Shown in pieces: positions 28,732-51,495 of a stretch of DNA of 64,000 nt. The notes under the pieces are model-generated. The model saw only the letters and a list, made by a program, of their open reading frames with translations, was not told where the DNA came from and ran no database searches. The stretch is taken from assembly GCF_000243095.1 (NCBI RefSeq), contig NZ_AHJE01000053.1, forward strand, positions 62,001 through 126,000, in the 5' to 3' direction. Source of the stretch: Cupriavidus basilensis OR16. Its GTDB lineage: Bacteria; Pseudomonadota; Gammaproteobacteria; Burkholderiales; Burkholderiaceae. The first letter of the stretch is position 1, and each line of letters starts with the position of its first letter. Both the position numbers and the translations under genes were made by a program.

Positions 28732-29973
28732 TCAGTCCAGCCAGCCGCTTGCCCGTATCTTGTCGAGCAAGCTCTCGACAATCTCAGGCGCCAGGCCGAC
28801 GTAGGTGGCGGGATCGAGCAGTTGCTTGAGCGTGGCGGGGTCCAGCGCTTCGCAAATGGTGGCATTGCGCTGCAGCGCCTGCTCGAAGGTGATGCCCCCT
28901 TCCATGCCCTGCATGGCGGCGGCGTAGACCAGTTCATGCGCGGTCTGCTTTCCGACCTTCTCGGAGAGCGCGAACATCACGCGCTCCACCGCCTTCCACT
29001 CCATGCGCACCGCCGCCACGTCACGCTCGTGCTCCGCCATCTGCGCGTCGTGCATCATCGCCACGCTGTAGCGGATGGCGCGGCTGAGCGTCACCACCGT
29101 CTCCACCACGGCGGGGTTGCGCTTGTGCGGCATGGTGGATGACCCGACCTTGCCTTCGTTGAACGGCTCCGCCAGTTCGCCGACCTCGTCGGCCTCGAGG
29201 TTCATGATGGCATTGGCGATCTTTCCCAGCGTGGCGCCGATCAGACCGAGCACGCTCACGTACTCGCCAAGGCGGTCGCGCGCGGGCTGCCAGCTGATGT
29301 CGGCCACGTTCAGGCCCAGCCGCGCCATCAATCGCGCCTCCAGCGCCATGGCGTGCGGGCCGAACGAGGCCTTGGTGCCCACCGCGCCCACCATCTGGCC
29401 AACGAAGGTGCGCGCCTCCAGCGCCTGCATCCGCTCGTGGTGGCGGCCAAGCTCCGACAACCAGACCGCGCACTTATGGCCAAAGGTGATCGGCAAAGCC
29501 TGCACCGAATGGGTCCGTCCGGCCATCGGCGTGTGCTTGTGCGCATCCGCCAGCCGATACAGTTCGCGCGAAGCCGCGGTCAGGTCGCGCATCAGGATGC
29601 TGTGCGCCTCGCGCACCTGCAGCATCATGCCGGTGTCGTACACGTCCTGCGAAGTCGGTCCGAAATGCACGAACTCGCCCAGCGCGCCCGCGCACTGGCG
29701 CTGCAGCGCGCGCACCGCGGGCACCAGCGGATGCTTCACACGGCGTGTTTCGCGGGCGAGCGCCGCCATGTCGATATCGGCGACGTTGGCCCGCGCCGCG
29801 ATCTCGCCGGCCGCAGCCGAGGGAATGATGTCCAGCGCCGCTTGCTCAAGTGCCAGTGCCGCCTCGAAATCGAACCACTTCTGTACCCGGTTCTCCTCCG
29901 AGAACACGGCACGCATCTCATCCGTGCTCCACATATGCTGCTGCAGGGGCTGGTCGAACACACTGGAAGTCAT
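28732..29973 (-). CDS. fumarase/adenylosuccinate lyase-superfamily lyase
   Basis: 413 residues, all-helical. The signature loop GSSTMPHKRNP near residue 285 is intact, and GRTHSVQALPITFG carries the catalytic-histidine segment. Family reactions release fumarate or cyclise 3-carboxymuconate (PcaB). The length suits adenylosuccinate-lyase-like or PcaB-like enzymes; context with Bug receptors and an enolase-superfamily enzyme points to catabolism, not purine synthesis. GTG at 29976 is an alternative start. Divergent from lysR at 30078, which is the likely regulator. Confidence 0.85.
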   Translation of the reverse strand: MTSSVFDQPLQQHMWSTDEMRAVFSEENRVQKWFDFEAALALEQAALDIIPSAAAGEIAARANVADIDMAALARETRRVKHPLVPAVRALQRQCAGALGEFVHFGPTSQDVYDTGMMLQVREAHSILMRDLTAASRELYRLADAHKHTPMAGRTHSVQALPITFGHKCAVWLSELGRHHERMQALEARTFVGQMVGAVGTKASFGPHAMALEARLMARLGLNVADISWQPARDRLGEYVSVLGLIGATLGKIANAIMNLEADEVGELAEPFNEGKVGSSTMPHKRNPAVVETVVTLSRAIRYSVAMMHDAQMAEHERDVAAVRMEWKAVERVMFALSEKVGKQTAHELVYAAAMQGMEGGITFEQALQRNATICEALDPATLKQLLDPATYVGLAPEIVESLLDKIRASGWLD

Positions 29974-30060
29974 CACAGAGGCCTTTTACGCTGGGAGAAG
30001 ATGTGGCGATTCTCTGCTTCCCATATCTTTCTGTAAAATGACATGTTTGTAGACAATCAT

Positions 30061-30073
30061 TGCCATAATGGCA
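30061..30073. promoter_or_regulatory. candidate LysR operator
   Basis: TGCCAT, A, ATGGCA: a perfect 6-1-6 palindrome just upstream of the lysR start (30078) in the 100-base spacer to the divergent lyase gene. Its position next to the regulator start fits autorepression. Confidence 0.5.
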
Positions 30074-30077
30074 TGAT

Positions 30078-31019
30078 ATGACCCTCCAACAACTTCGCTG
30101 CATCCAGGCTGTGATCGCCAGCAACCTCAGCGTGTCCCGCGCCGCGGATGCGCTGCACACGACCCAGCCCGCGGTGAGCAAACTCATCCGGTCGCTGGAA
30201 AACGAGATTGGCGTGGAGCTGTTCGTGCGCCGCGGCAACCGGCTGGTGGCGCTGACCGATGCGGGACAGGAAGCAGCGGCGCTGTCCCGCCGGGTGCTGA
30301 ACGACACGCGCGCGCTGACCAACCTGGCGCAAGCCAACCTTGCCGCGAGCAGGGGCACCTTGTGTGTGGGCACCACGCATATCCACGCCCGCTACGCCCT
30401 GCTCGACGTGATCCGGCGCTTCACCGCCGCGCATCCGGCCGTCAACCTGGAGTTGCTGCAAGGCACGCCCGCCCAGATCGTGCAGTGGGTGGCCGAAGGC
30501 GCGGTGGAACTCGGCGTCTCGACGCTGCCGCCGAAGACGCCGGAGGGCATCCTCACGCTGGAGGCCTATCCCATCCCGCGCTGCCTGATCGTGCCCAGGC
30601 GGCATCCGCTGCTCAAGCTCAAGAAGGTCACGATCGAAGATATCGCGCAGTATCCGCTCGTGACCTATGACGAGCACTTCAATTCCGGGTGGGTGGTGAC
30701 ACGGGAGTTCCAGCGCAAAGGGCTGTCGCCGCGGGTCGTGGTGCGGGCCACCGACGCGAATGTGATCAAGGCTTATGTGGCGGCGGGGCTGGGGGTGGCT
30801 GTGATCCAGCAGATGGCGCTTGAGCCGGCGCGGGATGTTGACCTGGCGGTGATCGATACCGGGGGGATCTTTCCCGCATCCATGGCGGCCATCAGCTTGC
30901 GGGACGACCAGTATGTACGCGGCTATATGCAAGACTTCATCGGCATGATCTCGCCGAAGGGGGCGGCGCAGGTACTGGGGTTGGCCGCCGGAGCGGCACG
31001 GGCCGGCTCCGGGGCATAG
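30078..31019 (+). CDS. LysR-family regulator, CysB-like subgroup
   Basis: 313 residues. N-terminus MTLQQLRCIQAVIASNLSVS with helix-turn-helix ALHTTQPAVSKLIRSLENEI, the form seen in CysB/Cbl. The effector-domain segment VTYDEHFNSGWVVTREFQRKG also follows CysB. Divergent from the fumarase-superfamily lyase gene. Because the module has no sulfur-assimilation genes, a catabolic role is more likely than cysteine control; known CysB-like proteins bind small sulfur metabolites, so the effector is open. Confidence 0.9.
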   Translation: MTLQQLRCIQAVIASNLSVSRAADALHTTQPAVSKLIRSLENEIGVELFVRRGNRLVALTDAGQEAAALSRRVLNDTRALTNLAQANLAASRGTLCVGTTHIHARYALLDVIRRFTAAHPAVNLELLQGTPAQIVQWVAEGAVELGVSTLPPKTPEGILTLEAYPIPRCLIVPRRHPLLKLKKVTIEDIAQYPLVTYDEHFNSGWVVTREFQRKGLSPRVVVRATDANVIKAYVAAGLGVAVIQQMALEPARDVDLAVIDTGGIFPASMAAISLRDDQYVRGYMQDFIGMISPKGAAQVLGLAAGAARAGSGA

Positions 31020-31067
31020 GGCTTGGGCACATCCCTTCGCCCGCTAGCGGGGTCAGGGAAGCATGCC

Positions 31068-32630
31068 TCAATCCAGCGGCCGCCCAGGCCTGAACCCATC
31101 CCGCAGTTCCCGCTTGAGCACCTTCCCGATGGCACTGCGCGGCAGCACCTCCACCAGCTCCAGCACGGCAAGCCGCTGCGTCTTGCCAACCTGCTCGTTG
31201 GTCCACGCCATCAAGGCGTCATCGGACACCGTGGCACCATCGCGCCGAACCACAAATGCCACCGGCGTTTCACCCCATCGCTGCGAGGGCACGCCAACCA
31301 CCGCGCAATCGAGCACGTCGGGATGCTGCTGCAGGACCCCTTCCAGGTCGCTGGGATAGATATTGAAGCCCCCGCTGATGATCATGTCCTTCTTGCGGTC
31401 CATCAGCGTGAGAAAGCCGTCTTCGTCAAAGCGGCCAACGTCGCCGGTGCGGATGAAGAGCTTGCCGGTGGCGTCGCGCCATTCGGCGGCGGCGGTCTTC
31501 TCCGGCTGCTTGTGGTAGCCGGCCATGATGGCGTTGGAGTGGCCGACGACTTCACCGATTTCGCCCACGGGCACTTCATTGCCGTCGTCGTCGATCAGGC
31601 GGATGTCGTGTCCTTCCATGGGCTTGCCCACGGTGTGGAGCTTGGTGGGGAATTCGTGCGCGGCCAGCACGCAGCTGCCGCCGCCTTCTGTCATGCCGTA
31701 GTACTCGACCAGGCCACCGGGCCAGCGCTTGAGGACCTCGGCTTTGAGCGCGGCGGAGAGCGGCGCGCTGGTGGAGAATTTCATCCGGTACGAGGACAGG
31801 TCGTAGTCATCGAAGTCGGCGCGCGCCAGCAGGCGCTGGTATTGCACGGGCACCAGCATGCTGTGCGTGACGCGGTGCTGCGCAGCCAGTTGCAGATAGC
31901 GCTGCGCGTCGAACTTGGGCATCAGCACCGCGGTGCCGCCGAGCGCCAGCGTGGGAATGAAGCTGACCAGCGTGGTGTTGGAGTACAGCGGCGTGGAGAT
32001 CAGCGTGACGGCATCCGGGCCGTAGCCGCCGGATTCCTGGACGCGGCGGATCTGGTTCCAGCGCAGGGCGTGGGTGTGCACGATGCCCTTGGGCGTGCCG
32101 GTGGTGCCCGAGGAATAGATGATGTTGAAGACCTGTTGCGGTGCAACAGGATGGGCTTGCGGGCGGCTGCCCTGGCGCGCCAGCCAGGCTTCGAAGGCGA
32201 GGCCGGTGGGCGCATCGGCCAGCCCGATGAGCCGGGCCTGGATGCTGTCCTTGACGTCTGCGATCTCGCGCAGGACGTCCGCGTCGACAAAGAACAGCCG
32301 GGCGTCGGAGTCTTCGACCATGCCAGCCAGGCTGGCCGGCGTGGAGGACGGCGCCAGCGGCACCAGGGCCACGCCTGCGCGCAGGCCGCCGATGAGGATG
32401 GCGGCGTATTCGTTTGACGCTGCCGCGCAGATGGCGAGCGAGGCGCCGGGCTGCAGGCCATCGCGCTGCAAGGCGGCGGCGACGCGGTCGGCCAGCGCGT
32501 CGAATTCGGCATAGGTGAGCGAGCCGCGGCTGTCGACGACCGCGACCTGCTGAGGCCGCTCGGCGGCGTGCAGGCGGACGCAGTCCGCGAGGTTGCCAAT
32601 CGGCTGTGCCAGAAGTTCTGTGATGCCCAT
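31068..32630 (-). CDS. AMP-forming acyl/aryl-CoA ligase
   Basis: 520 residues of the ANL superfamily: P-loop YSSGTTGTPKG near residue 180, EYYGMTEGGG, IRTGDVGRFDEDGFLTLMDR, GGFNIYPSDLE and the lysine in SAIGKVLKREL. It is the last gene of the minus-strand hydroxyquinol module. It resembles 4-coumarate/cyclohexanecarboxylate/long-chain ligases equally by eye. Not a close duplicate of the ligase at 19.5-21.0 kb, although both sit at an end of a maleylacetate pathway cluster. Confidence 0.9.
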   Translation of the reverse strand: MGITELLAQPIGNLADCVRLHAAERPQQVAVVDSRGSLTYAEFDALADRVAAALQRDGLQPGASLAICAAASNEYAAILIGGLRAGVALVPLAPSSTPASLAGMVEDSDARLFFVDADVLREIADVKDSIQARLIGLADAPTGLAFEAWLARQGSRPQAHPVAPQQVFNIIYSSGTTGTPKGIVHTHALRWNQIRRVQESGGYGPDAVTLISTPLYSNTTLVSFIPTLALGGTAVLMPKFDAQRYLQLAAQHRVTHSMLVPVQYQRLLARADFDDYDLSSYRMKFSTSAPLSAALKAEVLKRWPGGLVEYYGMTEGGGSCVLAAHEFPTKLHTVGKPMEGHDIRLIDDDGNEVPVGEIGEVVGHSNAIMAGYHKQPEKTAAAEWRDATGKLFIRTGDVGRFDEDGFLTLMDRKKDMIISGGFNIYPSDLEGVLQQHPDVLDCAVVGVPSQRWGETPVAFVVRRDGATVSDDALMAWTNEQVGKTQRLAVLELVEVLPRSAIGKVLKRELRDGFRPGRPLD

Positions 32631-32814
32631 AGGGTTGTCCTGTCTCCACTTGGCGTCGCGAGAGACGGGTCCGGGGAGAACTGTCTGGCGCGCGCGAATT
32701 ATCGTTTTGAACGGCCGGGCATCCGGCGTTCATCCCACCGGCCCGCCGGTATTGCCGCAGGCCAGTGGAGATTTTCGCACGGCCGCGGCAAGGCTGCCCG
32801 CGGCCGCTGGATAT

Positions 32815-33126
32815 TCACGCAGACGGCTCGTAGTCCACCTGGTGCCGTGCGATGCGCAAGTCGCCAAGCTCTTCCTTCACGCGCAGGTGCTCCGGGTGGC
32901 TGGCATAGCCCTCTAGCGCCTTTTGCGATTCGAACTCGGAGTACAGGACCACGTCGCAGGCGTAGTTGACCTTGCTCGAGTCCACGCCCACCTCCAGGTG
33001 GCGCATTCCGGGAATCCGGCCGCGAAGCCCTTCGAACGCAAGCTTGAGCCGGGACACGGCGTCTTGCTTGTCGACTTCGGTCTCTCCGCGCAGGTTCCAC
33101 ATCACGATGTGTTTGACGATGGACAC
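32815..33126 (-). CDS. Dabb-family (stress-responsive A/B barrel) protein
   Basis: 103 residues: IVKHIVMWNLRGETEVDKQD start, GLRGRIPGMRHLEVGVD, YSEFESQKALEGYASHPEHL, the regular ferredoxin-like repeat of dimeric A/B-barrel proteins. Family members include small aromatic-polyketide cyclases and accessory proteins in catabolic operons. The spacer in front of it contains 10-bp tandem repeats (33137-33186). Expected to be cytoplasmic; function in the pathway unknown. Confidence 0.85.
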   Translation of the reverse strand: MSIVKHIVMWNLRGETEVDKQDAVSRLKLAFEGLRGRIPGMRHLEVGVDSSKVNYACDVVLYSEFESQKALEGYASHPEHLRVKEELGDLRIARHQVDYEPSA

Positions 33127-33136
33127 GATTTCTCCC

Positions 33137-33186
33137 TTTGCCGACTTTGGCCGATCTTGGCCGATCTTCCTGATATTCCTGACATT
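33137..33186. repeat. 10-bp tandem repeats upstream of Dabb gene
   Basis: About five degenerate copies, the central two being identical TTGGCCGATC, flanked by TTTGCCGAC and TTCCTGATAT/TCCTGACAT. They fill the 69-base spacer between the dioxygenase and Dabb genes, just upstream of the Dabb start. Confidence 0.7.
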
Positions 33187-33195
33187 GAGCCAACG

Positions 33196-34410
33196 TTAAG
33201 CTGGCGGGAAACCGACCTTCTGCGGCCACAGGTTGCTAAAGGCATGCACGCTCGACTGCCCGTAGACGCCGGCCCGCGTGAAGGGCTCGCCGGCCAGCCA
33301 GACCTTGGCCTCGCCGAGCGACGGGAAATCGATCACCAGCAGGCTGCCGACCATGCTGGTGCCGTCCTCGCCCAGCAGCGGGCCAGCAAAGGCAATGCTG
33401 CCGGCCTTGGCGCCGAGGTAGACCTTGTGCTCCGGGCGCACGCGGGCGCGCAGTTCGCTGGTGCCGGGCTTGTCGAGAAGATGGAATACAAACAGCATGG
33501 GGCTTACCTCCTGGACGGCGCCGGTGCTGCCGGTGCCGGGTTGAGAATGAAATCGAAGTCCAGCGTGCCAATCGAAGTCCAGCGTGTAGAACGGCGTGGC
33601 CGATGGCGTGCCGTCCGGGGCGGTGCCGGCTTCGTGCTGCACCCAGTCCGCGATCAGGGAGCTGCGCACGCCGAAGACCGTGTCGGACTCCAGGTATTCG
33701 CCGCCTTCGCGGAACACATGGGTGATGAGCGTTTCGTAGCCAGGCGCGGAGATCATGAAGTGCAGGTGCGCGGGGCGCCACGGATGGCGGCCCATGGCAT
33801 CGAGCATGCGGCCCACCGGCCCGTCGTGCGGGATCGGGTAGCACTCGGCCACGATCGACTTGAAGTGAAAGCCGCCGCTCTCGTCGGCCGTCAGCGTGCC
33901 GCGGCCCTGGCGGCCATCGAGGCCCGCTTGCTGTACGTCATAGAGGCCTTCCGAATCTGCCTGCCAGACTTCCAGCCGCGCGTTCGGCACCGCCTCGCCC
34001 GTCACGCTCTTGACCTTGCCGCTGACATAGCACGGCTCACCGGTCATGCCGTTGCCTACGTCGGCGCCCAGTTCGTACTCTGGCGCGTCATCGACGTAGA
34101 ACGGCCCGAATACCGTGGCCTCGGTGCAGCCGCGCGGCTTCTTGTGGTTCTGCGCGGTGACCAGCGTGGACAGGCCCAGGGTGTCGGACAGCAGGATGAA
34201 CTCCTGCCGGCTGCCGGTGCAGGTGTGGCCGACTTCAGTCAGGAACTTGATGCCTTCGGCCCATTCGCCTTCCGTGAGCTGCACCTCGCGGGCGAAGGCG
34301 TGGAGATGCTGGACCAGGCTGGTCATGATCTCCTTGAGCCGCCCGTTGGGCATGTCGGCATGCCGCGCCAGCACGGCCTGAGTGATGGTCTCTTCGTCTA
34401 GATTGCGCAT
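33196..34410 (-). CDS. hydroxyquinol 1,2-dioxygenase fused to YciI domain
   Basis: 404 residues from the ATG at 34410. Residues 1 to about 290 are an intradiol dioxygenase: GLYDVQ and CYPIPHDG supply the two tyrosines, RPAHLHF the two histidines of the Fe(III) site; the helical dimerisation domain lies N-terminal. The last 100 residues (from MLFVFHLLDKPG) are a complete YciI protein. The fusion is caused by a 19-base duplication at 33551-33586: removing it restores an ending LDFDFILNP... and a TAA, followed by AGGAGG and the YciI ATG. Ring cleavage of hydroxyquinol gives maleylacetate. The 30-residue linker is out-of-frame sequence. Confidence 0.85.
   Translation of the reverse strand: MRNLDEETITQAVLARHADMPNGRLKEIMTSLVQHLHAFAREVQLTEGEWAEGIKFLTEVGHTCTGSRQEFILLSDTLGLSTLVTAQNHKKPRGCTEATVFGPFYVDDAPEYELGADVGNGMTGEPCYVSGKVKSVTGEAVPNARLEVWQADSEGLYDVQQAGLDGRQGRGTLTADESGGFHFKSIVAECYPIPHDGPVGRMLDAMGRHPWRPAHLHFMISAPGYETLITHVFREGGEYLESDTVFGVRSSLIADWVQHEAGTAPDGTPSATPFYTLDFDWHAGLRFHSQPGTGSTGAVQEVSPMLFVFHLLDKPGTSELRARVRPEHKVYLGAKAGSIAFAGPLLGEDGTSMVGSLLVIDFPSLGEAKVWLAGEPFTRAGVYGQSSVHAFSNLWPQKVGFPPA
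33551..33586. repeat. 17-bp direct repeat, period 19 (gene-fusing duplication)
   Basis: AATCGAAGTCCAGCGTG occurs at 33551-33567 and again at 33570-33586, two bases apart. The 19-base period is not a multiple of three, so it shifts the dioxygenase frame past its old stop and into the YciI gene. Confidence 0.9.
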
Positions 34411-34444
34411 GATGTGTGCTCTCTTGTGGTCGTTCTTGATGACA

Positions 34445-35410
34445 TTAGGCCTTGGTGGCATCTTCCCAGCGCGGGCAGGTGCGCTTGCTCACCGGGATGT
34501 CGATCGACTGGTAGTTGGTCTTGTCCACCACCGTGGCCGGCAGCACGATGCTCTGCGTGACCGGCATGCCGCGCAGCTTGCGGATGGCGGCGATCGTGCC
34601 CAGGCACCCCTGCGCAAAACCATTGTAGTCACCGGTGGCGAGCAAGGTGCCTGCCTTGATTGCGTCGATGGCCTCCTGCGTGCCGTTGATGCCGGACACC
34701 AGCGCCTTGCGGTTGGCGCCTTGCAGCGCCTCGATCGCGCCGATGGCCATGGCATCGTTGGCGGCAAAGATGCCGTCGATCTGCGGGTAGGACTGCATCA
34801 GGTTTTCCATGACCTGCAGGGCTTGCAGGCGCTGGTAATTGGCCGGCTGCGAGGCCACCAGCTTGACGTTGGGAAACGCCTTGAGTGCGTCGTGCATGCC
34901 TTTGACGCGGTCGATATTGGTCAGCGAGCCCTTGATGCCTTCCAGCAGCACCACGTTGCCCTTGCCGCCCATGGCCTTGAACAGGTGCGTGGCGGTCTTC
35001 AGCCCCAGGTCATAGTCGCTGGCGCCGACGAAGGAGACAAAGTTGCCGACCTCGCTCTTGTCGGTCACGTTGACCACCGGGATATTGGCCGCGTTGATCT
35101 TCTTCACGCCCGGACCCATGGCCTTGTAGTCCACCGGGACAAAGACGATGGCGTCGGTCTTCTTGACGATCACGTCCTCGATCTGGCTCATCTGCTCGGG
35201 GATGCTGTCCGGCTTGGTGGGGATGTAGTGGGTGACGCGCGCGTTCATGCTCTTGGCCGCCGCGTCCGCGCCCTGGCGCACCACCTGGAAGAACGGGTTG
35301 GTCTGGTTCTTGGTGAACACCGCGATGCGCTCGCCGTCCGCGTGGGCCGGTGCGGCCAGGATGCCGAGGGCCAGCACGGCGGCCAGTTGCTGCAGGTTAC
35401 GTACGTTCAT
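34445..35410 (-). CDS. RbsB-type ABC transporter substrate-binding protein
   Basis: 321 residues with a signal peptide (cleavage after AHA near residue 24) and the type-I periplasmic-binding fold: IAVFTKNQTNPFFQVVRQGA, VPVDYKAMGPGVKK, FVGASDYDLG, GIFAANDAMAIGAIEAL, all as in ribose- and other sugar-binding proteins. It forms a full importer with the two permeases and the ATPase upstream in the same direction. Lying between transporter and hydroxyquinol dioxygenase genes, it may bind a glycosylated or polar aromatic or heterocyclic compound rather than a sugar (inference). Confidence 0.92.
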   Translation of the reverse strand: MNVRNLQQLAAVLALGILAAPAHADGERIAVFTKNQTNPFFQVVRQGADAAAKSMNARVTHYIPTKPDSIPEQMSQIEDVIVKKTDAIVFVPVDYKAMGPGVKKINAANIPVVNVTDKSEVGNFVSFVGASDYDLGLKTATHLFKAMGGKGNVVLLEGIKGSLTNIDRVKGMHDALKAFPNVKLVASQPANYQRLQALQVMENLMQSYPQIDGIFAANDAMAIGAIEALQGANRKALVSGINGTQEAIDAIKAGTLLATGDYNGFAQGCLGTIAAIRKLRGMPVTQSIVLPATVVDKTNYQSIDIPVSKRTCPRWEDATKA

Positions 35411-35445
35411 GTTGTCTCCTTTGTCTCTGATGAAAAGCTTGCGGC

Positions 35446-35510
35446 CTTGATTGACGATCTTGATTGACGACCTCGAGTGACGACCTTGATTGACGACCCT
35501 GAGCTAAGAC
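35446..35510. repeat. 13-bp tandem repeats between permease and binding-protein genes
   Basis: Five copies of a 13-base unit: CTTGATTGACGAT, CTTGATTGACGAC, CTCGAGTGACGAC, CTTGATTGACGAC, CCTGAGCTAAGAC. The last copy includes the permease stop. They fill the 93-base spacer ahead of the binding-protein start at 35410. Confidence 0.85.
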
Positions 35511-36472
35511 CTCACGCCTAGCCGCTTGCGCGACAACGTATCCAGGAAGACCGCCAGCACCACGATCACGCCCGTCACCAGCGGCTGCCAGTTGGCGCTG
35601 ACGGTGAGCAGGTTCATGCCGTTGAGCACCAGCGTGAGGATGATGGCGCCCACCAGCGTGCCGGATACGCGGCCCACGCCGCCGAACAGCGAGGTGCCGC
35701 CGATCAACACCGCAGCGATGGCGGGCAGCGTCAGCGCCTCGCCAATATCGCCTTCGGCCGAGTTCAGCCGCGCCAGGAACACCAGGCTGGCGATGCCGGC
35801 CATGGCGCCACTCACCAGGTACACCAGCACCAGCCGCCGCTTCACCGGCACGCCGGAGAGCCGCGCCGCCACGGGATTGGCGCCGATGGCGTAGATCTCC
35901 TGGCCATAGGTGGTCTTTTGCGACATGGCGGTGCCCGCCACCAGGAACGCCAGCATCAGGTAGACCGGAATGGGCACGCCCCACAGGTAGCCGCTGCCGA
36001 TCGCCCGGAACGCCGGCGGGAAGCCGTGGATGGTCTCGCCCGCCATGAACCAATAGGTGACGCCGTGCAGCACCCACAACATGCCGTAGGTGGCGATGAA
36101 TGGCGGGATGCGCAGCATGGCCACCAGCAGGCCGTTGGCCAGCCCGATCAGCGCGCCGGTGCCCAGACCCGCGCTCACGCCGAGCATGGTGGAGCCGGTG
36201 GCCTTCATCACGGTCGCCGCCACGCAGGCCGACATGGCCACGTTGGCGCCCACCGACAAGTCCAGGCCGCCGGTCAGGATCACCAGCGTCACGCCCGATG
36301 CCAGCAGGAACAGCAGGCTGGCCTGGCGCAGCACGTTGAGGATATTGCCCAGCGTCAGGAACGCGTCCGACGCCACCGCGAGCAGCAGGCACAGCAGGCC
36401 CAGCGCGAACAGCCGGTAGGCAAACGAGCGGGCATCCGCCGAGAGTGGCGGGAACAGAGTCGCCGTGTTCAT
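35504..36472 (-). CDS. RbsC-type ABC transporter permease
   Basis: 322 residues with 8-10 hydrophobic segments. VTLVILTGGLDLSVGANVAM and YAIGANPVAARLSGVPV (the EAA-like coupling loop) are RbsC/AraH hallmarks. The ATG at 36472 follows GGGGAAAGC and overlaps the stop of the first permease gene; an upstream open frame is a shadow of that gene. Second of two permeases, so the channel is probably a heterodimer. Confidence 0.92.
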   Translation of the reverse strand: MNTATLFPPLSADARSFAYRLFALGLLCLLLAVASDAFLTLGNILNVLRQASLLFLLASGVTLVILTGGLDLSVGANVAMSACVAATVMKATGSTMLGVSAGLGTGALIGLANGLLVAMLRIPPFIATYGMLWVLHGVTYWFMAGETIHGFPPAFRAIGSGYLWGVPIPVYLMLAFLVAGTAMSQKTTYGQEIYAIGANPVAARLSGVPVKRRLVLVYLVSGAMAGIASLVFLARLNSAEGDIGEALTLPAIAAVLIGGTSLFGGVGRVSGTLVGAIILTLVLNGMNLLTVSANWQPLVTGVIVVLAVFLDTLSRKRLGVRS

Positions 36473-37425
36473 GCTTTCCCCTTGAACGATTCGATCAGCA
36501 GCACCACCAGCACCAGCAGTCCGATGGCCGCTACCTGCACCGATGACTGCACGCCAACCAGGTTGAGCCCGTTGCGCAGCACGCCCACCGCCAGCACGCC
36601 CAGCACCGTGCCGGGCAGCCAGCCGTTGCCGCGCTCGAAGGTGGTGCCGCCCACCGCCACCGCGGCGATGGCATCGAACTCCAACCCGATGGCCGCCGTG
36701 GGGTGCCCGGCATTCATGCGCGCCGTGAGCAGCAACGCGGCCAGCCCGGCCATCAGCCCGCCCAGCGCATAGACCGCGATGAGATACACATTGATGCGCA
36801 CGCCGGAGAACTTGAGCGCCTCGCGGTTGCCGCCCAGCGCGAACACATAGGCGCCAAAGCGGGTGTGGTAGAGCAGCCAGTGGAACAGGCCGTAGAACAC
36901 CACCGCGATCCAGATCGGGAACGGCACGCCCAGCAGTTGCCCGGCGTAGATCAGCGGAATCGTGTCGCCGATGCCTGTCACGCTCTGGCCATCGGTCGCC
37001 ACCAGCGCCAGCCCCTGCGCGACGCCCAGCGTGCCGAGCGTGGCCACGAAAGGCGGGATCTCCAGCCACGACACCAGCGCCCCGTTGAGCAGGCCGAACG
37101 CCAGCCCGGTAAGCAGCGCGGCGCCCAGAGCAAGAGGCAGCGACTCCGTGGACACCATCACCATCGCCAGCACCACGCCGCACAAGGTCAGCACGGCGCC
37201 CATCGACAGGTCCAGCCCTTCGGTCATGATGATCAGCGTCATGGGCAAGGCGATCAGCAGCAGGATGGTGGATTGCGTGCCGATGTTCAGCAGGTTCTCC
37301 ACGCTCAGGAAGCCCGAGCCCGTCACGCTGAAGCCCAGCGAAAGCAGCAGCAGCACCCAGACCGATCCGGGCACCTTGCCAATGGAAAGGCTAAGCGGAC
37401 GCGGTAGTGCGTTGGTATCAAGCAT
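36469..37425 (-). CDS. RbsC-type ABC transporter permease
   Basis: 318 residues, the same fold as the next gene: MTLIIMTEGLDLSMGAVLTL and FALGGNREALKFSGVRI. The start overlaps the ATPase 3' end by eight bases, so the transporter genes are translationally coupled. Confidence 0.92.
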   Translation of the reverse strand: MLDTNALPRPLSLSIGKVPGSVWVLLLLSLGFSVTGSGFLSVENLLNIGTQSTILLLIALPMTLIIMTEGLDLSMGAVLTLCGVVLAMVMVSTESLPLALGAALLTGLAFGLLNGALVSWLEIPPFVATLGTLGVAQGLALVATDGQSVTGIGDTIPLIYAGQLLGVPFPIWIAVVFYGLFHWLLYHTRFGAYVFALGGNREALKFSGVRINVYLIAVYALGGLMAGLAALLLTARMNAGHPTAAIGLEFDAIAAVAVGGTTFERGNGWLPGTVLGVLAVGVLRNGLNLVGVQSSVQVAAIGLLVLVVLLIESFKGKA

Positions 37426-38926
37426 CGTTCATCCCCAGTTGCAGAATGCGTTCTTCGGTCATCTCGCCATGGGCGACTTCGCCGGCGATGCGCCCGCCGC
37501 GCATGACATAGGTGCGGTCGCAGACATTGATGATTTCCGGCAGTTCGGAGCTGATCAGCAGGACGCCAGCGCCCTGCTTCACCAGGCTGTCGATCAAGGC
37601 AAAGATCTCGGCCTTGGCGCCTACGTCGATGCCGCGCGTGGGCTCGTCGAAGATAAACAGCTTCGCTTCGGCGACCAGCCATTTGCCGATCACGATCTTT
37701 TGCTGGTTGCCACCGGAGAGGAACTGCGCGAGCTGGTTGCCGTTGGGCGTGGCAATGCGCAGCCGCGCGATCTCGCGCTCGGCCAGCGCCTCGGCCTTGT
37801 CTGCGCGATACCAGCGTGCGGGAAAGGCGCGGCGCAAGCCGGCCAGCAGCAGGTTGTCGCGCACCGTGCGGATCAGCGCCAGCCCCTCCGACTTGCGGCT
37901 TTCCGGAATCAGCGCGGCGCCCAGTTCGCGGGCCCGGTCCGGCCCGCCGGTGAGGCGTTTGCCAAAGATGCGGATTTCGCCCTGGCGGACCAGATCCGCG
38001 CCAAACACGGCGCGCGCCACCTCGCTGCGGCCCGAGCCCACCAGCCCGGCCAGGCCCACGATCTCGCCGGCGCGCACCTGCAGGTTGATGTCGGTGATGC
38101 CGTTGTCGGCGCTGACGTTGTGCACATCCAGCGCCACTTCGCCCAGTTGCGCGCTGCGCTCGCGGCTATAGCTCATGTCGACCTTGCGCCCGACCATGCG
38201 CGCCACCAGTTCGTCCGGCGTGGCGTCGCCGGGCAGGCAGGCGCCTACCTTGCGGCCATCGCGCAGGATGGTGATGCGGTCGCCCAGCGCAAAGACCTCC
38301 GCCATGCGGTGCGAGATATAGATCATCGAGACGCCATCGGCCTTGAGCCGCGCGATCACGGCGAACAACTTCTCGGTCTCGCGGTCGGACAGCGCGGCGG
38401 TAGGCTCGTCCAGCACCAGGATGCGTGCGTTCTGCGACAGCGCCTTGGCGATTTCCACCATCTGCTGCTGGGCCACGCCCAGCGCATGCACCGGCGTGCG
38501 GGTGCTCACCTCCATGCCCAGGATATCGAGGATGCGGCGTGCTTCGGCGTGCATCCTGGCGGCGTCGACGGAGCCGGGAATGCGCCCGCGCGGCTCGCGG
38601 CCCAGGAAAATGTTCTGCGCGATGTCAAGGTATGGCACCAGCGAGAACTCCTGGAAGATCACCGCGATGCCCAGGCGCATGGTGTCGGCCGGGCTGGTGA
38701 TCGCCACCGGGGCGCCATCGTGATAGAACTCGCCGGCATCGGCCACGTAGACGCCGCACAGCACCTTCATCAGCGACGATTTGCCGGCGCCGTTCTCGCC
38801 CAGCAGCATGTGCACCTCGCCGGGGTAGATGGCGAACGACACATCGTCCAGCGCCTTCACGCCGGGAAAGCCCTTGCAGATGCCGCGCATCTCGAACAGC
38901 GGCGTGACTTCGGTGATTGCGTTCAT
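37418..38926 (-). CDS. RbsA-type sugar ABC transporter ATPase (two cassettes)
   Basis: 502 residues with two nucleotide-binding domains. The first has Walker A LLGENGAGKSSLMK (near residue 40), an LGVAQQQMVEIAKAL signature and Walker B ILVLDEPTAALSD. The second has the degenerate Walker A AGLVGSGRSEVAR, as usual in this family, FLSGGNQQKIVIGKWL and LFIFDEPTRGIDVGAK. It powers the importer encoded downstream. It begins 117 bases after the amidohydrolase gene in the same direction. Confidence 0.94.
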   Translation of the reverse strand: MNAITEVTPLFEMRGICKGFPGVKALDDVSFAIYPGEVHMLLGENGAGKSSLMKVLCGVYVADAGEFYHDGAPVAITSPADTMRLGIAVIFQEFSLVPYLDIAQNIFLGREPRGRIPGSVDAARMHAEARRILDILGMEVSTRTPVHALGVAQQQMVEIAKALSQNARILVLDEPTAALSDRETEKLFAVIARLKADGVSMIYISHRMAEVFALGDRITILRDGRKVGACLPGDATPDELVARMVGRKVDMSYSRERSAQLGEVALDVHNVSADNGITDINLQVRAGEIVGLAGLVGSGRSEVARAVFGADLVRQGEIRIFGKRLTGGPDRARELGAALIPESRKSEGLALIRTVRDNLLLAGLRRAFPARWYRADKAEALAEREIARLRIATPNGNQLAQFLSGGNQQKIVIGKWLVAEAKLFIFDEPTRGIDVGAKAEIFALIDSLVKQGAGVLLISSELPEIINVCDRTYVMRGGRIAGEVAHGEMTEERILQLGMNDA

Positions 38927-42411: not shown

Positions 42412-42423
42412 TGTTTGTCTCCT

Positions 42424-42469
42424 GTGTGTTGTGTGTTGTGTGTTGTGTGTTGTGTGCATGTTGTGTGTT
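42424..42469. repeat. heptanucleotide tandem repeat GTGTGTT
   Basis: Four perfect GTGTGTT copies (42424-42451), an imperfect stretch, and a further copy at 42463-42469. It lies 13 bases upstream of the start of the HIBADH-like gene (minus strand), within the likely leader. Confidence 0.9.
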
Positions 42470-51423: not shown

Positions 51424-51472
51424 TTGCGTCTTGCGTCTTGCGTCTTGCGTACTGCGTATTGCACCTTACGTC
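51424..51472. repeat. heptanucleotide tandem repeat TTGCGTC
   Basis: Seven copies of a seven-base unit, three perfect TTGCGTC (51424-51444) then TTGCGTA, CTGCGTA, TTGCACC, TTACGTC. It sits in the spacer between the ketopantoate-reductase-like gene and the small gene at 51373 (minus strand). Confidence 0.85.
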
Positions 51473-51495
51473 TTGTGGCCACGACGGGCCGGAAC

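Follow-up and report, generated by a model that had tools for sequence, protein, structure and literature searches.

A frame-changing short repeat that joins hydroxyquinol dioxygenase and YciI genes in the Cupriavidus basilensis OR16 draft genome is probably an assembly error

The window, a stretch of 64,000 nucleotides from Cupriavidus basilensis OR16 (GCF_000243095.1, contig NZ_AHJE01000053.1, positions 62,001 to 126,000), contains an apparent fused gene in which a hydroxyquinol 1,2-dioxygenase runs into a YciI protein across a short tandem repeat. The second copy of this repeat is very likely an error of the assembly, and the true locus probably consists of two ordinary genes for the degradation of aromatics that lie close together. 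Assembly is the best cause because exact copies have been inserted in this genome regardless of the reading frame, in one draft only, and none of this kind was found in the sampled relatives.

The sequence AATCGAAGTCCAGCGTG is present exactly twice in the window, at 33551–33567 and at 33570–33586 of the plus strand, with a period of 19. The two copies are separated by a filler of two bases (33568–33569, CC on the plus strand) matching neither flank of the repeat. These 17 identical bases recurring with a period of 19 are those described in the original prediction. Its further description as a 19-base tandem duplication was correct for the period but, since only 17 positions match and the two CC bases remain unmatched, the duplication is not a perfect one. 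The repeat exceeds chance: in 30 simulated windows (third-order Markov) the longest such run, at periods of 4–60, was 16 and a run of 17 was never reached, and longer runs in the real window occurred only inside the short-unit arrays at 42423 and 51424. Alignment of the window with the relatives G003, G006 and G040 revealed exactly 19 extra bases at the repeat site.

Because of the 17-base repeat with its two filler bases, the dioxygenase frame continues without a stop into YciI. As a result, the minus strand is open from the ATG at 34410 to the stop codon at 33196–33198, giving an apparent frame of 404 codons (33196–34410, stop codon included). An alternative ATG upstream, at 34461 of the same strand, would give 421 codons; most aligned homologues begin with MRNLDEET or a similar sequence, which is equivalent to the start at 34410. 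On this minus strand, residues 1–280 (33571–34410) correspond to the dioxygenase, residues 281–304 (33499–33570) are out of the old frame, replace the conserved dioxygenase end and are mostly predicted to be disordered, and YciI has an ATG of its own (33196–33498). When the sequence is read with a single copy of the repeat, the dioxygenase ends at a TAA (33504–33506) that abuts the AGGAGG at 33507–33512, a putative ribosome-binding sequence for YciI, 8 bases ahead of the YciI ATG at 33498. G003 and G006 share this single-copy layout, with TAG in the place of TAA. The proposed account of the frames, a fusion of 404 residues and, with a single copy, a normal dioxygenase end at a TAA followed by a YciI gene with its own start, was thereby borne out.

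Both parts of the long frame were recognizable at protein level. The dioxygenase part matched PF04444 (Dioxygenase_N) and PF00775 (Dioxygenase_C) above cut-off, and the hydroxyquinol 1,2-dioxygenase of known structure (1TMX) aligned end to end with residues 6–280 (E 1.3e-82). Tyr157, Tyr191, His215 and His217, at the positions that we take to be those of the Tyr, Tyr, His and His iron ligands of 1TMX, were invariant in all 32 rows of the alignment. In contrast to 1TMX, the C-terminal end is exchanged in the long frame: the conserved DF(V/I)LNP end is missing, and residue 281, Phe in 30 of 31 unfused homologues, is Trp here. This end would be present if one copy of the repeat is an artefact. 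The YciI part matched PF03795 above cut-off over the whole domain, and its D9 and H24 were invariant in 25 of 25 rows. Thus, the predicted 404-residue fusion keeping the dioxygenase ligands and a whole YciI domain was confirmed in sequence, domains and alignments. The predicted model of the fused chain was of middling quality (mean pLDDT 72.4, pTM 0.63), its alignment covering YciI by just three rows besides the query, and the linker between the domains fell below pLDDT 50 at residues 288–307 and 309–325. One alignment that combined dioxygenase with YciI sequences came out misaligned and was left out of the results.

Among natural proteins of known structure, the YciI part was closest to TftG, the 5-chloro-2-hydroxyhydroquinone dehydrochlorinase (4LBH, E 2.2e-8), which is outscored by repetitive designed proteins through many short matches. 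The likeness to TftG and to HI0828 (1MWQ) extends over the whole YciI domain and includes one invariant Asp and one invariant His, whereas the sequences are remote and YciI stands alone in relatives. According to the accessible part of one report (PMC3975901), the TftG step shortly precedes benzenetriol 1,2-dioxygenase in the breakdown of 2,4,5-trichlorophenol. Since the natural protein of known structure most like the YciI part is an enzyme acting shortly before such a dioxygenase, the products of the two genes may well cooperate as separate proteins.

The search covered 60 genomes of the genus; among the loci retrieved from them, 14 relatives had both genes and none had the fusion. In 10 of the 14, YciI directly follows the dioxygenase gene, its ATG lying 8–17 bases beyond the stop codon and every pair being separate, and in the other four another gene lies between them. 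Outside the genus, the two genes are adjacent and unfused at L038 and L039. The fused frame was also absent among the tested loci of the 38 obtained from a contig scan, from which very near records may have been omitted, and a search of a plasmid collection gave six partial matches, none with 80% query coverage. The accessible literature, including the available part of PMC10304115, held no dioxygenase-YciI fusion, most subscription papers lying outside this search, and fusions of YciI to other domains have been reported, as seen in part of another paper (PMC7641849).

Some other arrangements of the locus were observed. In G040, G052 and G019 (L003, L004 and L005) both genes share a reading frame, in which one TAA and a few codons separate them, and readthrough of this stop codon would yield a natural fusion. 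In another group of the genus (L011, L014, L016 and L017) the intervening gene resembles in sequence the Dabb gene of the window and YciI is much diverged (32–36% identical). In a Variovorax MAG (L068, 4001–4299) YciI matches as two pieces in different frames.

The differences between the window and its close relatives were counted from the start of the second copy to the YciI ATG. G006 differs at five positions: read in the dioxygenase's old frame, three of these are silent, one replaces stop by stop and one lies behind the stop. Up to and including the old stop, none of the four differences therefore alters the old protein, and in the fused frame each of the five leads to another amino acid. 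For G003 seven differences were counted, which in the old frame comprise three silent changes, two amino-acid changes, one replacement of stop by stop and one position behind the stop; six of the seven lead to another amino acid in the fused frame and one is silent in it, and the two old-frame amino-acid changes and this silent one speak against the artefact. The substitutions thus show that the sequences diverged while the genes were unfused, and the repeat is either very young or not real. No evidence of selection on the fused frame, or of its evolution relative to G006, was obtained from this comparison.

The OR16 draft assembly comprises 416 contigs with a total of 8.55 Mb, a completeness of 99.44 and a contamination of 5.1%. 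In a first sample of 371,602 bases, window included, several exact repeats with periods of 16–23 were out of step with the triplet code. The sample was later widened to 1,169,910 bases, and 1,595,004 bases of four relatives (G006, G003, G052 and G040) were taken for comparison. With a run of at least 16 and a period of at least 15, limits that were fixed after part of the sample had been inspected, this genome gave 25 exact short tandem repeats (periods modulo three 10:10:5), 15 of them frame-changing. The relatives gave six, three in G006, two in G003, one in G052 and none in G040, all with periods that are multiples of three. The contrast of 15 frame-changing repeats with none is significant (binomial p 2.5e-6), the compared stretches being non-orthologous sets and a few of the listed repeats belonging to longer arrays instead of being two-copy. 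Under looser limits, 19 of 37 repeats were frame-changing here versus 8 of 28 in the relatives. The last-added 399,946 bases of this genome contained 12 repeats of which four were frame-changing, so that frame-neutral periods prevail there (8:4:0), and the 437,002 bases of G052 and G040 held no frame-changing repeat. The repeat sites lie in the G000 stretches L075–L090, L137–L156 and L197–L216, and their periods are mostly 16–27, with one of 40. The copies match exactly, mostly with no filler between them, the period minus the run being 0 at 12 of the 25 sites.

Several of these repeats interrupt genes. A frame test based on codon usage was readable at 10 of the 25 sites (14 were unreadable and one was too near an end), and indicated a frame jump equal to the repeat length at six, a kept frame at three and another jump at one. 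Random positions gave a frame jump at 93 of 1,665 readable places. The dioxygenase-YciI site is among the three where the frame is kept, because there the shift puts two genes into one frame. When eight pairs of flanking frames were scanned with Pfam, five carried successive parts of one architecture in different frames: a molybdopterin oxidoreductase (profile positions 1–182 and 173–352), an ABC-transporter ATPase (ABC_tran 1–25, just below cut-off, and 17–137), a TctC protein (2–49 and 38–273), a LysR regulator (HTH_1 followed by LysR_substrate from 36) and a gene of the phosphoesterase family. Two other pairs had no match on one side, and a racemase pair had matches on both sides that were not one split profile.

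Six repeat sites were also queried for length in five relatives and, at four of them, full-length matches in relatives were shorter by exactly the repeat. This deficit was found in all five genomes at a 20-base site and at the 40-base site, in four of five at a first 23-base site, where the fifth matched in part only, and in one of five at a second 23-base site, where the other four gave partial matches only. In alignments at the first two of these sites (20 and 23 bases), the missing bases fell inside the repeat in three of five and in four of four relatives, respectively; at the first site, the two most distant relatives scatter the same net deficit across several gaps. Of the remaining two sites, one differed in length by +50 in two relatives and the other had no full-length match.

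As in an artefactual tandem expansion, the extra adjacent copy at 33570–33586 is absent in the close relatives and such copies recur in the assembly above the background of the relatives, irrespective of genes. A precedent is the genome of Vibrio fischeri ES114, in which, according to the accessible part of the report (PMC2330054), fourteen regions of 318–1264 bases were wrongly present twice, the likely cause being the tandem misassembly of imperfect contig ends. As far as that part describes them, both cases have neighbouring sequence doubled in tandem at many sites, extra or truncated frames and some odd bases where the expansions begin or end. In contrast, the V. fischeri regions were far longer and were confirmed by PCR and resequencing, whereas those described here are mostly of 16–27 bases, with one of 40, and are read from the draft assembly. 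By analogy, we infer that two pieces of the OR16 locus with an overlap of about 17 bases may have been set in tandem and not merged, as elsewhere in this assembly, and that the two bases left between them are wrong or uncertain. If so, the dioxygenase gene of the strain itself would stop at its own TAA and YciI would start 8 bases later behind the AGGAGG, and two separate proteins would be made from neighbouring, presumably translationally coupled genes of a cluster for degradation by hydroxyquinol ring cleavage.

Features of the sequence around the repeats were considered too. Loss of coverage through high G+C content or hairpins as the cause of broken contigs was unsupported, as the G+C content of the repeat sites was not higher than that of random places (p 0.56) and the sites were less structured than these (p 0.008). 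Eleven contig ends compared with each other had no 14-mers in common, and no clearly overlapping neighbour emerged when 20-mers from three contig ends were searched for.

The original prediction left open whether this is a gene fusion caught at birth or an assembly artefact. The fusion does exist in the sequence, and the relatives indicate an unfused ancestry, but the artefact is favoured over a birth because frame-changing repeats recur in the assembly, with none found in the four relatives, other genes are split by five or more of them and the G006 differences fit the unfused frame. A real and very recent duplication in the strain, arising by slippage or by end joining with two filler bases and giving rise to a 404-residue dioxygenase-YciI protein, is in our opinion unlikely. 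Both copies are exact, the frame is open, both domains are complete, a low-confidence linker lies between them in the model, and the genes at 32.8–38.9 kb have no other frame-changing coding difference common to both close relatives, all of which such an event would accommodate; YciI may then also still be produced from its own ATG behind the AGGAGG. However, the same assembly has other frame-changing exact repeats splitting conserved genes, the DF(V/I)LNP end is lost, and the fused frame bears no sign of having evolved relative to G006.

The excess of exact repeats with little filler would equally be produced if short tandem duplications had truly arisen in a burst across the genome, through a mutator-like process, the present repeat being one instance. 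Nevertheless, this would leave many genes broken, as the sample, about 14% of the genome, has 15 frame-changing sites, and error is the simpler source because the assembly consists of 416 contigs with 5.1% contamination; we consider such a burst improbable. A real burst of exact 16–40-base duplications that broke several genes and, in one place, made a fusion joining a TftG-like step to ring cleavage is to be regarded as just as improbable. Finally, a selected metabolic fusion, with dioxygenase and YciI acting on successive steps and the substrate being channelled, would find some support in the nearness of the YciI part to TftG (4LBH) and in the order of the steps given in the accessible text of PMC3975901. 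Neither an independent fused genome nor selection was found, all 10 adjacent pairs being unfused and the G006 substitutions fitting the old frame. With no fused relative at the examined loci, no signal of evolution in the fused frame and an artefact being likely, this explanation was rejected as extremely improbable. If the fusion were true, it would offer a rare view of the birth of a two-domain enzyme. If, as we prefer, the second copy is an assembly error, further false frameshifts are probable in this assembly, and its split or fused genes are suspect without reads. Comparing repeat periods modulo three with those of relatives offers an inexpensive way to look for errors of this type in other draft genomes.

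The dioxygenase gene is surrounded, at 28732–38926 of the window, by a PcaB/adenylosuccinate-lyase-like gene, a LysR regulator, an AMP-binding ligase, a Dabb gene and a sugar-type ABC transporter, a composition that suggests a degradation pathway. At 35445–35512, between the genes for a periplasmic binding protein and a permease, about 4.5 copies of the 13-base unit CCTTGATTGACGA were identified. Two arrays of 7-base units were also present in the window, one of TGTGTGT (4.9 copies) at 42423–42456 and the other of TTGCGTC (7.4 copies) at 51424–51475.
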